This document shows positions 13,285 through 63,443 of a stretch of DNA of 64,000 nt, in pieces. Source of the DNA: Paracoccus wurundjeri (lineage in GTDB: Bacteria > Pseudomonadota > Alphaproteobacteria > Rhodobacterales > Rhodobacteraceae); contig NZ_JAUUTZ010000008.1 of assembly GCF_030678915.1 (NCBI RefSeq), forward strand, positions 124,001 to 188,000, given 5' to 3'. The notes below the pieces were generated by a model. The model had not been told where the DNA came from, made no database searches, and was given only the letters and a program-made list of their open reading frames with translations. The position numbers and the translations under genes were made by a program. Numbering within the stretch: position 1 is the first letter of the stretch; every line of letters starts with the position of its first letter.

Positions 13285-14042
13285 GTCAACCTCATCGGGA
13301 TACCAGCGGCGGCCATATGGGCCTTGGCCTCGGCAATCGTATAGGTGCCGAAATGAAAAATCGAGGCGGCCAGAACGGCGCTTGCATGGCCTTCGGTGAC
13401 GCCTTCGACCAGATGATCCAGCGTGCCGACCCCACCCGAAGCGATGACCGGGATATTCACTGCATCCGCGATGGCCCGGGTCAGGGGCAGGTTGAAGCCC
13501 GAACGGGTTCCGTCGCGATCCATGCTGGTCAGCAGGATCTCTCCCGCGCCTTTCGCCTCGACTTTACGGGCAAATTCAACGGCGTTGATGCCGGTAGGCT
13601 TGCGGCCGCCATGGGTGAAGATCTCCCATCGGCCCGGCGCGACGGTCTTGGCGTCGATGGCGGTGACGATGCATTGGCTGCCGAAACGGTCGGCGGATTC
13701 GGCGACGACATCGGGGTTGGCGACGGCGGCGGAGTTGAAGCTGACCTTGTCCGCGCCGGCCAGCAGCAGGTCGCGCACATCACCCGAGCTGCGAACGCCG
13801 CCGCCGACGGTCAGCGGAACAAAGCACTGTTCTGCCGTTCGGGTGACAAGATCGAACATGGTGCCGCGGTTTTCATGCGTGGCATGAATGTCCAGAAAGC
13901 AGATCTCGTCTGCTCCGGCGGCATCATAGGCGCGCGCCGCCTCGACCGGATCCCCGGCATCCCGCAGATCGACGAAATTCACGCCCTTCACCACGCGCCC
14001 GTCGGCAACATCGAGACAGGGGATGATCCGGGTCTTGAGCAT
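13281..14042 (-). CDS. hisF: imidazole glycerol phosphate synthase subunit HisF
   Basis: HisF is the cyclase subunit that uses ammonia from HisH to make imidazole glycerol phosphate and AICAR. The 253-residue (beta/alpha)8 barrel shows the catalytic Asp11 in [15 protein letters not shown] and IASGGVGTL as the two phosphate-binding loops, and [11 protein letters not shown]. It is three bases downstream of hisA and overlaps hisE by four bases. The glutaminase partner hisH is not adjacent, although in many relatives it precedes hisA. Confidence 0.96.
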
Positions 14043-39478: not shown

Positions 39479-40147
39479 ATGTATCAGTTCAACTTCCAGC
39501 CCGTTTTCGAAAACCTCGACCTGCTGCTTCATGGAGCATGGTTAACGGTGAAGCTGTCCTTCATGGCGATGTTTCTGGGGCTGATCGTTTCGGTGTTCGG
39601 AGCGGTTGCAAAGACCTCGGGCATCCGTCCGCTGCGCTGGCTGGTCGATATCTATATCGAGGTGATTCGCAACACGCCTTTCCTCGTGCAGATCTTTTTC
39701 ATCTTTTTCGGTCTTCCTGCCGCCGGGATCAGCATGTCGCCGAACCTTGCGGCGCTGGTTGCGCTTGTCATCAATGTCGGCGCCTACGGCACCGAGATCA
39801 TTCGCGCCGGAATCGAATCCATTCCGCGAGGCCAGATCGAGGCGGGCCGCGCGCTTAGCCTCAGCCCGGTTCAGATCCTGCGATACGTGATTCTGAAGCC
39901 TGCGCTGCGGAATATCTATCCTTCGCTGACCAGCCAGTTCATTTATCTCATGCTGACTTCCAGCGTTGTTTCGGTCATCTCGGCAAATGATCTGGCCTCG
40001 GCGGGGGCGGATCTGAATGCGAAAACCTTCGCCAGCTTCGAGATTTATCTTGTCCTGACGATCCTTTACTTCCTGCTGGCCTTTGGCTTCTCGACCCTGT
40101 TCGGCGTCATTCGGCGCGCCTTCTTCACCTATCCGGCGGGGCGCTGA
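39479..40147 (+). CDS. amino acid ABC transporter permease (first)
   Basis: The 222-residue protein is a HisM/ArtM-type permease of the polar amino acid uptake family with about five membrane helices. The loop binding the ATPase is seen as GIESIPRGQIEAGRALSLSPVQ, and YIEVIRNTPFLVQIFFIFFGLP is the early family motif. GGGGAGG precedes the ATG. The second permease begins one base after its stop. It is the first structural gene behind the LacI-type operator. Confidence 0.92.
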   Translation: MYQFNFQPVFENLDLLLHGAWLTVKLSFMAMFLGLIVSVFGAVAKTSGIRPLRWLVDIYIEVIRNTPFLVQIFFIFFGLPAAGISMSPNLAALVALVINVGAYGTEIIRAGIESIPRGQIEAGRALSLSPVQILRYVILKPALRNIYPSLTSQFIYLMLTSSVVSVISANDLASAGADLNAKTFASFEIYLVLTILYFLLAFGFSTLFGVIRRAFFTYPAGR

Positions 40148-55117: not shown

Positions 55118-56134
55118 ATGAAACGAACGGTATTTTGGGGCGCATTGGCGGTAACCGCCATGACGGCAGGTGCCGCCGCCGCCGACACTCTTTCCGAAGT
55201 GAAAAATCGTGGCGAGTTGAATTGCGGCGTCAATCCGGGTCTGGTCGGTTTCGCTGCGCCTGACGCGAACGGCAATTGGGCGGGATTCGATGTCGATCTG
55301 TGCAAGGCGGTTGCGGCCGCGGTGCTGGGAGATCCGGGAAAGGTCAAATATGTCCCTCTGACGGGACAGACGCGGTTCACCGGTCTGTCCTCGGGGGAGG
55401 TGGATCTTCTGGCGCGGAACTCGACCTGGAGCTTTTCGCGCGATACCGACCTCAAGCTCGATTTCGCGGGGGTGAATTATTATGATGGTCAGGGCTTCAT
55501 GGTCCGCAAGGATCTTGGTGTCACCTCGACCAAGGAACTGGATGGCGCGACGATCTGCATCCAGACCGGCACCACGACCGAATTGAACCTTGCCGATTAT
55601 TTCAAGGCCAACGGCATGGAATATCAGCCCGTCAATATCGACAGCAATGCCGAGGGTGAGCAACAATATATGGCCGGGGCATGCGATGCCTACACCACCG
55701 ATATTTCGGGGCTTGCCGCGACCCGTGCGGCGTTTGCCGATCCCGAAAATCATGTCATCCTGCCCGAGGTGATCTCGAAAGAGCCTTTGGCCCCGGCGGT
55801 TCGTCATGGCGATAACAATTGGGGCGATATCGTCCGCTGGACTCTGAACGCACTGATTGCCGCCGAGGAATATGGCATCACCTCGAAGAATATCGAGGAA
55901 CTGGCGAAATCTTCGGAAAACCCCGAAGTACAGCGGATTCTGGGCGTCACGGACGATCTGGGAGCGATGATCGGGCTGGATAAGGAATGGGCCAAGCGCG
56001 CCATTCAGGCCAGCGGGAATTACGGAGAGATCTTCGCCGCCAATGTCGGGGAACAGACGCCGATCGGGCTTGCGCGGGGACTGAATGCGCAATGGACACA
56101 GGGCGGATTGCTTTACGCGCAACCCTTCCGCTGA
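55118..56134 (+). CDS. bztA: Glu/Gln/Asp/Asn ABC transporter substrate-binding protein
   Basis: The 338-residue precursor is the periplasmic binding protein of the Bzt/Aap broad-specificity acidic and amide amino acid importer. It has a signal peptide (about residues 1-22, AAA-D cleavage) and the family-specific blocks RGELNCGVNPGLVGFAAPD, GFDVDLCKAVAAAVLG, TRFTGLSSGEVDLLARNSTWSFSRD and RHGDNNWGDIVRWTLNALI. ATG 55118 has GAGG just upstream. A 12-bp hairpin follows the stop. The same operon continues bztB-bztC-bztD. Confidence 0.94.
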   Translation: MKRTVFWGALAVTAMTAGAAAADTLSEVKNRGELNCGVNPGLVGFAAPDANGNWAGFDVDLCKAVAAAVLGDPGKVKYVPLTGQTRFTGLSSGEVDLLARNSTWSFSRDTDLKLDFAGVNYYDGQGFMVRKDLGVTSTKELDGATICIQTGTTTELNLADYFKANGMEYQPVNIDSNAEGEQQYMAGACDAYTTDISGLAATRAAFADPENHVILPEVISKEPLAPAVRHGDNNWGDIVRWTLNALIAAEEYGITSKNIEELAKSSENPEVQRILGVTDDLGAMIGLDKEWAKRAIQASGNYGEIFAANVGEQTPIGLARGLNAQWTQGGLLYAQPFR

Positions 56135-59817: not shown

Positions 59818-60696
59818 CTATCGGATATCCTTCACGAATTTATCCCCAAATTGCGATCTCAGGAATTCCATCTGCGGTTCCATCCGCTCTGTCAGCAGTG
59901 CGACCGCGGCGGGGGGCGGGTTCAGGCCAGGGGGATTTGCGAAGACTTTTTTGTCAAGATTGCCATAGGGATAAGGCCCAATTCCCAGATATTCCTCTAA
60001 CTCGTCCATCAATTCGCCGGGCTCTCTGGCGATCCGGCCGAAGGGGATCACCTTCATGTCGGGGAAATGCTTTTGCCAGCGCGGAAGATAGGCTGCGTAA
60101 TCGCCCCGATCATACAGAACCGGGTTCCGGACCTCTTCCAGCCAGTCGGCTTCGGTTTTCGGAGTGCGCTTTTCCCGGCGCAGGTTCATCCGCAATTGTG
60201 AAATCGCCCGGTCGACCGGATGGCGGATCATGTAGATCACTTTGACCTTGCGCAGGAAACCGGCCACGAATTCGACGCCCTCTTCGGGCAGGGTCGAATA
60301 TTCCGGCGTGAAATCCATCGGGACCGCATTTCCGGGCGCCGGGGCGAAGACACGCTTGTACCAATGATTGTGAAACATTTTCCCGCTGGTCAGCCCGTCC
60401 AGATAGGAATCAAGCTCCGGCGGCAGGGGTTCTTCGCGTTTGATATGACGTTCGCGGATTTCCTTGGGCTTGTTCCGGTAATGCCATTTGATCCAGTATT
60501 GATGCCCGGGAATGTAGACGTAATTGAAGAACTGCACCTCCTTGAACGGAGGTATCCACACCTGCGGATGCTGGCCAAGCATCTGGGCAAGCCAGGAGGT
60601 TCCGGCCTTTTGCGCCCCTATGCACAGCGCGCCGGGCTTGCGGGGCTGGCCCTTGGGGTCGAAATTGGCACTGACGGTGATCAAATCTCGCAGCAT
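59818..60696 (-). CDS. sulfotransferase domain protein
   Basis: The 292-residue cytosolic-type protein has the PAPS-dependent sulfotransferase fold. The 5'-phosphosulfate loop is GAQKAGTSW at residues 27-35, and the 3'-phosphate motif is IRHPVDRAISQLR with R158 and S166. HYRN and DFTPEYSTLP are also typical of the heparan-sulfate-like branch. The acceptor is unknown; bacterial relatives modify polysaccharides, lipids or Nod-type signals. It has no biosynthetic neighbour here: downstream is bztD, upstream the MT-A70 gene, 27 bases away on the same strand, so it may be cotranscribed with the restriction-modification genes. Confidence 0.88.
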   Translation of the reverse strand: MLRDLITVSANFDPKGQPRKPGALCIGAQKAGTSWLAQMLGQHPQVWIPPFKEVQFFNYVYIPGHQYWIKWHYRNKPKEIRERHIKREEPLPPELDSYLDGLTSGKMFHNHWYKRVFAPAPGNAVPMDFTPEYSTLPEEGVEFVAGFLRKVKVIYMIRHPVDRAISQLRMNLRREKRTPKTEADWLEEVRNPVLYDRGDYAAYLPRWQKHFPDMKVIPFGRIAREPGELMDELEEYLGIGPYPYGNLDKKVFANPPGLNPPPAAVALLTERMEPQMEFLRSQFGDKFVKDIR

Positions 60697-60723: not shown

Positions 60724-61365
60724 TCACTTGGAACGAAGTTTGACGATATTGCTTTGCGAATGGTTCGCATAGGTAGGCCAGTCGGGCTCGTACTCCTCGG
60801 ATTGATTGCCCCAGACCGTCCAGCCCTTGCGCTTGCCGCGCGCGAACATTTCCAGACGGGGGCCCCAGCTGCAAGCCTCGATCACATCATATTGTTCATC
60901 GGGTTTGCGGCTGTGTTCGCGCTTGCGGGTGGCGAAGATGTTTTCCTGCGAGCGGCCGGGATCCAGCGTGCGGACATCCTTGCCCCGCACGCCGAACAGC
61001 AGGATCTCGGTCACGTTGCGGAAATAAAATCCCACGCCGCGCCGGTCGGGGCCGCCATCCTTGCGGATCTTGTACCAGATCAGGTTGCTTTTATAGGTAA
61101 AGCCCCAATGCTCCATGACCCGCAGCCCTTCGGGCAAAAGCGCGTTCGGGACCCACAGATACAGATGGGCGCGGGACGCGGCGATTGCCTCGACCGGAAG
61201 ATCGCAGATCGCATCCAGGCTCATTGTCGGATAGCGCGACAGCCGCCGATGCTCGGGCGCCATCTTGCCGGTGCGGTTCTGGAACTGCCACGGAGGATCG
61301 GCAAGGATCGTGCCGAAGCGCGTGGAGCCGGCACATGCCAGCAACTCGTCAGATGCGCTGTTCAT
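60724..61365 (-). CDS. MT-A70 family adenine-N6 DNA methyltransferase
   Basis: The 213-residue protein carries the MT-A70 catalytic motif DPPW (residues 23-26) in TILADPPWQFQNRTGK, then YPTMSLDAICDLPV, HLYLWVPNALLPEGLRVMEHWGF and NVTEILLFGVRGK. Bacterial members methylate adenine in DNA and are often part of restriction-modification systems. ATG 61365 is favoured by the GGGGGCGGGG run before it; ATG 61377 is possible. It overlaps the end of the BglII-type endonuclease gene by 17 bases, which strongly suggests a cognate pair. Confidence 0.85.
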   Translation of the reverse strand: MNSASDELLACAGSTRFGTILADPPWQFQNRTGKMAPEHRRLSRYPTMSLDAICDLPVEAIAASRAHLYLWVPNALLPEGLRVMEHWGFTYKSNLIWYKIRKDGGPDRRGVGFYFRNVTEILLFGVRGKDVRTLDPGRSQENIFATRKREHSRKPDEQYDVIEACSWGPRLEMFARGKRKGWTVWGNQSEEYEPDWPTYANHSQSNIVKLRSK

Positions 61366-61957
61366 CCCCGCCCCCATCTACATATAGCGACTTGCTTATA
61401 CCGAACACCAATAGAGGACATCCGGCCCCGCCGCCACCCTCAATCCGTGGCAAGAGCTTGGACATATGCGTGGTCGATGCCCCGAAGGACGATTTTCGCC
61501 CAAGATTGTTGAAAATATCCTGAAGCTCGTCCGATCTTGTTATGATGACACCAACGCTCAGCGCACGCAAATCGAATAGCAGGCGGAAATTGTTCAGATC
61601 GCGGTCGAAAAAGGGATCCTTGTTGTTCCACTCGATTTCCAGCCCGATCTGGTTGCGATAGCAGTCGATCTTGTGGGTCGGACTGTCAAGACGACGCCCG
61701 TCCACCATGACTGCCGTCTGGAACTGTTTCTCCTGCCAGCCGCGCAGGGTCAGGAACCCATCGATATTTGCCGCGACGCGCGATTTCTGGCCGCCGCCGA
61801 TCTCGATCCATTCGCGATGCAGGCGGAACTGGGTCAGCACGTCAAGGATATCGCGCCATTCGTCCGGAAAATCATGGGCAAGGATCGCACTGGCATGGCG
61901 CCATTCATGAACCTCGTAATGCGTGCGAATGAACTCGGGCAGCCGGTCGGCCTTCAC
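61349..61957 (-). CDS. BglII-family type II restriction endonuclease
   Basis: The 202-residue product resembles the BglII/BstYI endonuclease family (GATC-core cutters). Asp98 in THKIDCYRN, Glu107 and Glu109 in [10 protein letters not shown] keep the spacing of BglII D84/E93/Q95 as I recall it, with Glu in place of Gln, like the E-x-E of Bam[29 protein letters not shown] follows. The start is taken as GTG 61957, overlapping the rimO TGA as GTGA; a TTG at 61969 is in frame too. The MT-A70 gene overlaps its end. Codon use is host-like. Recognition site is unproven. Confidence 0.8.
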
Positions 61958-63333
61958 AACCGGCCCCAAAGATCGTATTCGCCCGCCTCATCCACCGTGA
62001 CCGAAACGATATCGCCGGGGTTCAACGCCTCGAAACCCGTGTCTATGAACAGATTTCCGTCGATTTCGGGTGCGTCTGCCTTGGTGCGGCAGGTCGCGCC
62101 TTCATCATCCACCTCATCCACGATGACCTCAAGGCGCTGTCCGACCTTCCGCGCCAGCTTGGCTTCCGAGATTGCCTGCGCCTTCTGCATGAAGCGGTCG
62201 AAACGATCCTGCTTGATCTCGTCCGGCACATGGTCGGGCAGATCATTCGCCCGTGCGCCTTGGACGTTTTCATATTGGAAGCAACCGACACGATCCAGTT
62301 GCGCCTCGTCAAGCCAGTCCAGCAGGGTCTGGAATTCTTCCTCGGTCTCGCCCGGATATCCCACGATAAAGGTCGAACGCAGCGTGATTTCGGGGCAAAC
62401 TTCACGCCATGCGGCGATCTCGTCCAGCGTTTTTGCCGCCGCGGCCGGGCGGGCCATGCGTTTCAGCGTATCGGGATGGGCATGCTGGAAGGGAATATCC
62501 AGATAGGGCAGCACCTGTCCGCCCGATTCGGCATGGGCGGCCATCAATGGGATCAATTCACGCACATGCGGATATGGATAGACGTAATGCAGCCGCACCC
62601 ACGCGCCCAGACTGCCCAGATCGCGGACAAGATCGGTGATATGGGCACGGTGGCCGCGTTCTTCGGCGAATTTCCGGTCAACGCCATAGGCAGAGGTATC
62701 CTGCGAGATGACCAGCAGTTCCTTGACACCGGCCTGCACCAGCTTTTCGGCTTCACGGATCACTGCATGGGCGGGGCGGCTGACCAGGCGTCCACGCATG
62801 TCCGGGATAATGCAGAACTTGCACTTGTGGTTGCAGCCCTCTGAAATCTTGAGATAACTGTAATGGCGTGGCGTCAGGCTCACACCGCTTGCGGGCAACA
62901 GGTCGATAAAGGGATCGGGCGCGGGCGGTACCGCGCCATGCACGGCATCCAGCACCGATTCATATTGATGCGGCCCGGTGACAGCCATGACCTTGGGATG
63001 CGCGCCGGTGATATATTCCGGCTCTGCCCCCAGGCAGCCGGTCACGATGACCCGCCCGTTCTGGTGCAGCGCTTCTCCGATGGCCTCCAGCGACTCGGCC
63101 TTGGCGCTGTCCAGAAAGCCGCAGGTATTCACGATCACGGCATCCGCGCCTGCGTAATCCGGGCTGATCGCATAGCCTTCGGCGCGCAGCCGGGTCAGGA
63201 TGCGCTCGCTGTCGACAAGCGCCTTGGGGCAGCCAAGGCTGACCATGCCGATCGTCGGCTGGCCCTTGCGCCGTACATCGGGGATGGCGGCGCGGGCAAG
63301 ATCGGGGCGCAAATCTGGCGGGTTCCTGTGCAT
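61954..63333 (-). CDS. rimO: ribosomal protein uS12 methylthiotransferase
   Basis: RimO adds a methylthio group to Asp88 of ribosomal protein S12 using radical SAM chemistry and a second iron-sulfur cluster. The 459-residue protein shows the auxiliary-cluster Cys at 35 ([13 protein letters not shown]), 71 (NTCGF) and 100 (TGCLG), and the radical SAM CxxxCxxC at 167, 171 and 174 ([12 protein letters not shown]). A TRAM domain closes the protein ([13 protein letters not shown]). ATG 63333 is preferred; ATG 63390 would add 19 residues unlike the family. The endonuclease gene overlaps its stop as GTGA. Confidence 0.95.
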
Positions 63334-63443
63334 CCGCCGCACATAGGCGATTCTGCGGCATCTGAAAAGAGGATTGCAACCAAGGGACATAACCGCGAGT
63401 TAGCATTCCATATCTGCGTTTCATCTATCTTCAGGACATTGCC

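Follow-up and report, generated by a model that had tools for sequence, protein, structure and literature searches.

A close, experimentally tested relative of the gene pair studied here is carried by the Nitratiruptor phage NrS-3 (LC545444), in which NrS3_08 and NrS3_07 encode the endonuclease R.Nph3I and the methyltransferase M.Nph3I, respectively. Its specificity, its modified base and its block by 6mA were established by others: according to the accessible part of that study, R.Nph3I cleaved each of the four RGATCY probes, of which BglII, assayed alongside, cleaved AGATCT alone; M.Nph3I turns RGATCY into RG(m6A)TCY; SMRT sequencing revealed an almost complete RG(m6A)TCY methylation; and the cleavage by R.Nph3I was completely blocked by 6mA (PMC10734518). 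The same part of the paper, where a search for the term MT-A70 returned nothing, reports BstYI to be insensitive to 6mA (PMC10734518), so that the fold is no guide to the sensitivity to methylation. In Acinetobacter baumannii A118 (H0N27_10820-30), an endonuclease of the BglII/BstYI superfamily occurs together with m6A at RGATCY in a system that limits incoming DNA, as far as the accessible part of its description goes (PMC10287943).

In the window (the whole 64,000-nucleotide stretch of Paracoccus wurundjeri DNA analysed here), we found an endonuclease 65.1% identical to R.Nph3I over 95% of the length, and a methyltransferase 71.4% identical to M.Nph3I over 97% of the length. We propose, with a probability of about 0.92, that these two chromosomal genes form a type II restriction-modification system like that of R.Nph3I/M.Nph3I, directed at RGATCY. 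Gene anatomy, protein families, conserved catalytic residues, pairing and gene order come from the present analysis, and the fold from a prediction. Knowing that the homologue Nph3I was assayed as an RGATCY/m6A system, RGATCY (which includes AGATCT) is the site to be expected for the window pair, and by analogy both specificity and activity in the host strain would be those of Nph3I. The features of the locus are as follows:

61349..61957, minus strand: type II restriction endonuclease of the BglII/BstYI fold (predicted model; PF09195), 202 amino acids, GTG start
60724..61365, minus strand: MT-A70 (DPPW) DNA adenine-N6 methyltransferase, 213 amino acids (PF05063; PADLOC MTase_II)
61954..61957, minus strand: GTGA junction between the rimO stop and the endonuclease start (sequence)
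61349..61365, minus strand: 17-base overlap between the endonuclease end and the methyltransferase start (sequence)
61954..63390, minus strand: rimO, which lies upstream and from which transcription presumably comes (TIGR01125, E 1.5e-161)
59818..60696, minus strand: sulfotransferase-like gene, downstream bound of the cassette slot (PF13469, E 6.6e-17)

The order on the minus strand is thus rimO, endonuclease, methyltransferase and sulfotransferase-like gene. As the earlier note on this DNA had it, with the right coordinates, the GTG start codon of the endonuclease (at 61957) overlaps the TGA stop codon of rimO as GTGA (61954-61957). The 17-base overlap that it gave for the two cassette genes also holds, provided that the methyltransferase ORF (60724-61377, minus strand) is started from the ATG at 61365, to yield 213 amino acids; an alternative in-frame ATG at 61377 would yield 217 amino acids and a 29-base overlap with the endonuclease. 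The GTGA junction suggests translational coupling. No HTH controller gene was found in the slot, in agreement with the claim that there is none: the frames overlap, and 27 bases are left before the sulfotransferase-like frame. The host genome has a single match for each of the BglII and MT-A70 families, for which 14 control genomes gave 0 matches.

The reading of the two genes as a type II pair made of a BglII-family endonuclease and an MT-A70 methylase was upheld, both curated Pfam cut-offs being passed. The endonuclease matched PF09195 with an E of 2.1e-44 (151.6 bits, for a cut-off of 26), and its AlphaFold2 model (pLDDT 91.9) was aligned by VIA-align with BstYI (Z 17.5), BglII (Z 17.2) and BamHI (Z 14.9), the first rows beyond this group being at Z 5.7; Foldseek retrieved BstYI (E 3.5e-8), as well as BamHI and OkrAI. 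A PDB search with the single endonuclease sequence returned one chance match and no endonuclease, and a sequence profile reached BstYI at an E of only 0.016; the link to the BstYI fold therefore rests on Pfam and the model. Neither protein matched NCBIfam at E up to 1; the endonuclease had no match in PADLOC, and PHROGs returned only a weak match of the unknown type.

BglII has an E-x-Q catalytic core, and BamHI an E-x-E core. The core of the window endonuclease is E107-x-E109, as previously read, and not E-x-Q, which is no requirement of PF09195. The conservation of Asp98, Glu107 and Glu109, which had been put forward as a check, was borne out by 63 aligned homologues, all of which have D98 and E109, and at least 90% of which keep E107 (the E107 place is occupied by D in L003, L005, L018, L019, L020 and L022). 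Hence, the E-x-E core that had been regarded as an oddity is usual in this family.

The Pfam name BglII, and the similar structural scores of BglII and BstYI (Z 17.2 versus 17.5), would also suit a BglII-type system acting strictly on AGATCT, or on another single GATC-core hexamer. We regard such a narrow specificity as very unlikely, since the 65%-identical homologue cuts all four RGATCY forms, whereas BglII cuts only AGATCT, and the 71%-identical methylase marks RGATCY, according to the accessible part of the report (PMC10734518).

With RGATCY as the preferred site, we turn to the counts. AGATCT occurs 9 times in the window (11.8 ± 3.3 in shuffles), including the four places listed in the earlier note (1129-1134, 13901-13906, 39690-39695 and 56028-56033), whose reasoning that AGATCT must be methylated or unrecognised we accept as right. 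RGATCY is slightly low in the window (77 versus 91.9 ± 9.1), with 95 of 100 shuffles containing at least 77. Near rimO, the number of RGATCY over GATC sites was 393/2891 in 11 genomes with the endonuclease (the 64 kb window plus ten 20 kb stretches), 342/2143 in 10 methylase-only genomes, and 524/4042 in 20 genomes with neither gene. For the same three groups, in that order, the Markov observed/expected ratios near rimO were 0.71, 0.82 and 0.78 for AGATCT, and 0.84, 0.90 and 0.75 for GGATCC. These local rimO samples, as opposed to whole genomes, revealed no RGATCY depletion due to the endonuclease as compared with cassette-free congeners, and RGATCY avoidance, which gave no signal across the three groups near rimO, was rejected as a fingerprint of specificity. 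The lack of depletion fits full protection; it lends no support to the RGATCY reading.

Turning to the methyltransferase, it matched PF05063 (E 5.7e-29, 101.7 bits, for a cut-off of 23.9) and PADLOC MTase_II (E 3.7e-89), and its DPPW motif (D23 P24 P25 W26) is invariant in 60 homologues. Its predicted model (pLDDT 80.4) matches chains of METTL3 and of the Tetrahymena MTA1 complex.

A scan of the GTDB genomes identified at least 550 stretches encoding a relative of the endonuclease, of which the best 80 (66-78% identical) were kept; being the nearest to the query, they are not an unbiased sample. They occur in Rhodobacteraceae, other Pseudomonadota, and bins labelled Bacteroidales, Chloroflexi and Planctomycetota; bins can be contaminated, and the single taxon labels of GTDB loci need care. 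In all these 80 loci (L032-L111; the best 80 of at least 550), an MT-A70 gene lies 3' of the endonuclease on the same strand, with a 4-base overlap in 32 of the 80, and overlaps of 17, 17, 17 and 20 bases in L032-L035. L042 and L095 have a broken endonuclease frame, and the choice of start left L037, L050 and L059 without a methylase length in the locus table. A wider sample of 394 genomes of the host's family provided a BglII-family match in 64 of them (62 above the cut-off). Of the 30 loci from this wider sample, one is our own; an MT-A70 homologue lies in the fetched flank of 23 of the other 29, the endonuclease coming first in 13, the methylase first in 6, and the genes being on opposite strands in 4; in the other 6 the MT-A70 gene was absent from that flank or a fragment only. 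From this pairing in 80/80 and 23/29 loci, MT-A70 is the usual partner, and the endonuclease-first order is usual in the nearest subfamily. Both the MT-A70 partner and the endonuclease-before-methylase order had been listed as oddities, a view contradicted by all 80 kept loci.

The METTL3 chains, which are the best PDB matches of the methyltransferase model (E 1.0e-15), might point to an RNA methyltransferase merely adjoining the endonuclease. We find this hardly credible. First, the sequence favours ciliate-type MT-a70 chains (best PDB matches, E 2.4e-18) over METTL3 (E 6.7e-11), and several of these ciliate-type chains carry the title of the Tetrahymena DNA methyltransferase complex MTA1c. 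Second, the pairing with a BglII-family endonuclease recurs in all of the 80 best loci and in 23 of the 29 loci of the wider sample. Third, the homologue M.Nph3I methylates RGATCY in DNA, as stated in the accessible part of the report (PMC10734518).

The pair is rarer elsewhere. Among 385 genomes of the class, 7, counting our own, matched the endonuclease at E 1e-50; at E 1e-5, matches came from 5 phage records (of 50,697) and 13 plasmid records (of 72,556), all 13 of the latter being less than 60% identical. In ten loci (L003, L005, L018, L019, L022, L024, L025, L028, L030 and L031), the endonuclease is 30-34% and the methylase 65-71% identical to ours, with other gene orders or orientations, and with D at the E107 place in five; there, the endonuclease diverged or was exchanged and the methylase stayed. 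The L020 endonuclease is 52% identical, with no MT-A70 homologue within the fetched flank. In Methylococcus capsulatus, MCA0246 is a 651-base adenine methylase gene with RGATCY as the predicted motif, in the accessible part of its description (PMC13390346); this length is in keeping with the MT-A70 type, and L082 and L104 are Methylococcales loci with the pair.

In Paracoccus the pair lies between rimO and the sulfotransferase-like gene, a new observation. We searched 125 Paracoccus genomes, 124 of which have a detected rimO, and obtained an endonuclease match (E 1e-3) in 23, and a methylase match (E 1e-10) in 43. The 23 comprise 11 endonucleases of near full length (75-100% identical) beside rimO, 4 genomes with remnants at the slot, 1 weak match, and 7 genomes in which a more distant endonuclease (38-57%) shares a contig with a methylase (63-75%), at a distance from rimO. 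Both genes come after rimO in 11 of the 125 genomes, and the methyltransferase alone in 10. Of the 11 endonuclease-bearing congeners, 9, including the window, have a clean GTGA junction; about 290 bases separate rimO from the endonuclease in L206, and in Rhodovulum (L038) the overlap between the two genes is likewise 4 bases. In L204, GTGA is present and the rimO frame ahead of it is in two pieces, through a frameshift or an assembly error. The recurrence of GTGA (9/11) and of the pairing (80/80) indicates more than chance. Of the 21 congeners with the cassette, 20 have the sulfotransferase-like gene after it (L207 has only a fragment). Among the 20 cassette-free congeners fetched, this gene starts at most about 60 bases from rimO in 12; in the remaining 8 it is about 1 kb off or was not found.

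A tie to rimO as an intrinsic part of the system was considered and rejected: rimO was detected in 7 of the 80 kept loci, a lower bound, as some of these loci are short contigs. It stands within 300 bases ahead of the endonuclease in 5 of the 80 (L032-L035 and L038). Two other Rhodobacteraceae loci have the pair near rimO, ahead of it in L049 and about 1.8 kb after it in L051. The neighbourhood of rimO may be a recurrent landing place for the pair.

Solitary methylases can arise from restriction systems by loss of the endonuclease. In ten congeners (L209-L218), a methylase 85-98% identical to ours directly follows rimO, and no whole endonuclease was found at E 1e-3, in the slot or elsewhere in these genomes. 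In 9 of the 10 (L213 being the exception), the stretch that separates rimO from the methylase gives a better alignment to the endonuclease gene than any of 200 shuffles; in the nearest relative (L209, genome G449), the middle of the endonuclease is gone and both rimO and the methyltransferase are 98% identical to ours. The DPPW motif is intact in all 21 slot methylases. In L211-L218, the methylase has an overall dN/dS (NG86) of 0.142 (28 non-independent pairs ranging from 0.093 to 0.243, mean dS 0.415), as compared with 0.096 for rimO and 0.177 for the sulfotransferase-like gene; the values in five endonuclease-bearing relatives are 0.080, 0.111 and 0.255 (6 pairs), respectively. The solitary methylase is still under purifying selection (8 of the 10 genomes compared); the constraint thus persists, although the higher dN/dS shows it to be more relaxed than where the endonuclease is present.

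Mapped on the methylase tree, the two states (pair, methylase only) need 4 changes, and well-supported branches force at least 3, with a poor inner support among L202-L218 that makes the count within this group uncertain. This test is itself blind to loss versus regain; the endonuclease remnants make the changes speak for loss. The rimO tree requires 10 changes for the three states, and 5 for cassette versus none, a pattern compatible with repeated loss, or with exchange through flanking homology. We tentatively suggest, with less than even confidence, that through repeated deletion of the endonuclease the system in the Paracoccus rimO slot is repeatedly being reduced to a solitary m6A methyltransferase for RGATCY that serves a separate function, in gene regulation or in protection against endonucleases of the same specificity; the retention of the methylase could merely reflect that the endonuclease has to go first.

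The endonuclease of G449 lacking its middle, and the methyltransferase standing alone at the slot in ten congeners, raise the question of whether the window endonuclease is itself inactive, leaving the methylase to work as a solitary m6A writer. We consider this improbable, because the window frame is whole with D98, E107 and E109 present, and the endonuclease dN/dS is low in congeners (0.036-0.114 in 10 pairs from five congeners and 0.031 in one further pair, the window's own gene lying outside these pairs).

By analogy with the Nph3I system, our preferred two-gene restriction-modification system would operate as follows. Both genes would be co-transcribed with rimO, at the end of its transcript, and coupled by the stop/start overlaps. 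The endonuclease, presumably as a BstYI-like dimer, would cut unmethylated RGATCY (AGATCT, GGATCC and AGATCC/GGATCT), and the MT-A70 methyltransferase would turn the host sites into RG(m6A)TCY, thereby blocking the cleavage. The pairing of a BglII-fold endonuclease with an MT-A70 methylase is thus tied to a tested homologue, and thereby to a likely specificity. If this is right, RGATCY methylation should protect DNA brought into carrier strains; in a different RGATCY system, Dam methylation does protect, according to the accessible part of that report (PMC10287943). The most interesting part is the decay towards the solitary methyltransferase, for which one slot in one genus, in three states (empty, full and methylase only), is a natural series.

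Comparing the window pair with the known systems, it shares with R.Nph3I/M.Nph3I the gene order, the strand, the D98/E107/E109 residues and the DPPW motif. The NrS-3 pair belongs to a phage, its genes lie 12 bases apart, and a regulator gene is found downstream of them, whereas the window pair is chromosomal, overlapping and beside rimO. BstYI (RGATCY) and BglII (AGATCT) have the predicted fold and PF09195 in common with the window endonuclease, but only 17-19% identity to it in structural alignments; BstYI has E-x-Q where the window endonuclease has E-x-E, and it is 6mA-insensitive, unlike R.Nph3I, the window's homologue, in the accessible part of the report (PMC10734518). METTL3 and Tetrahymena MTA1 are like the window methyltransferase in sequence and predicted fold, but they are parts of multi-subunit complexes (from PDB titles), whereas the window enzyme is one short protein with an endonuclease partner. 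Other published RGATCY systems have a different architecture or chemistry: the A118 genes come in the order methylase, HTH regulator and endonuclease, with the methylase annotated as a DNA adenine methylase, and are set apart by this description in the accessible part of the paper (PMC10287943), while in R. blasticus 28/5 RGATCY carries m4C (PMC6256690). The window pair is an ordinary, widespread system of a known kind, with a tested close relative.
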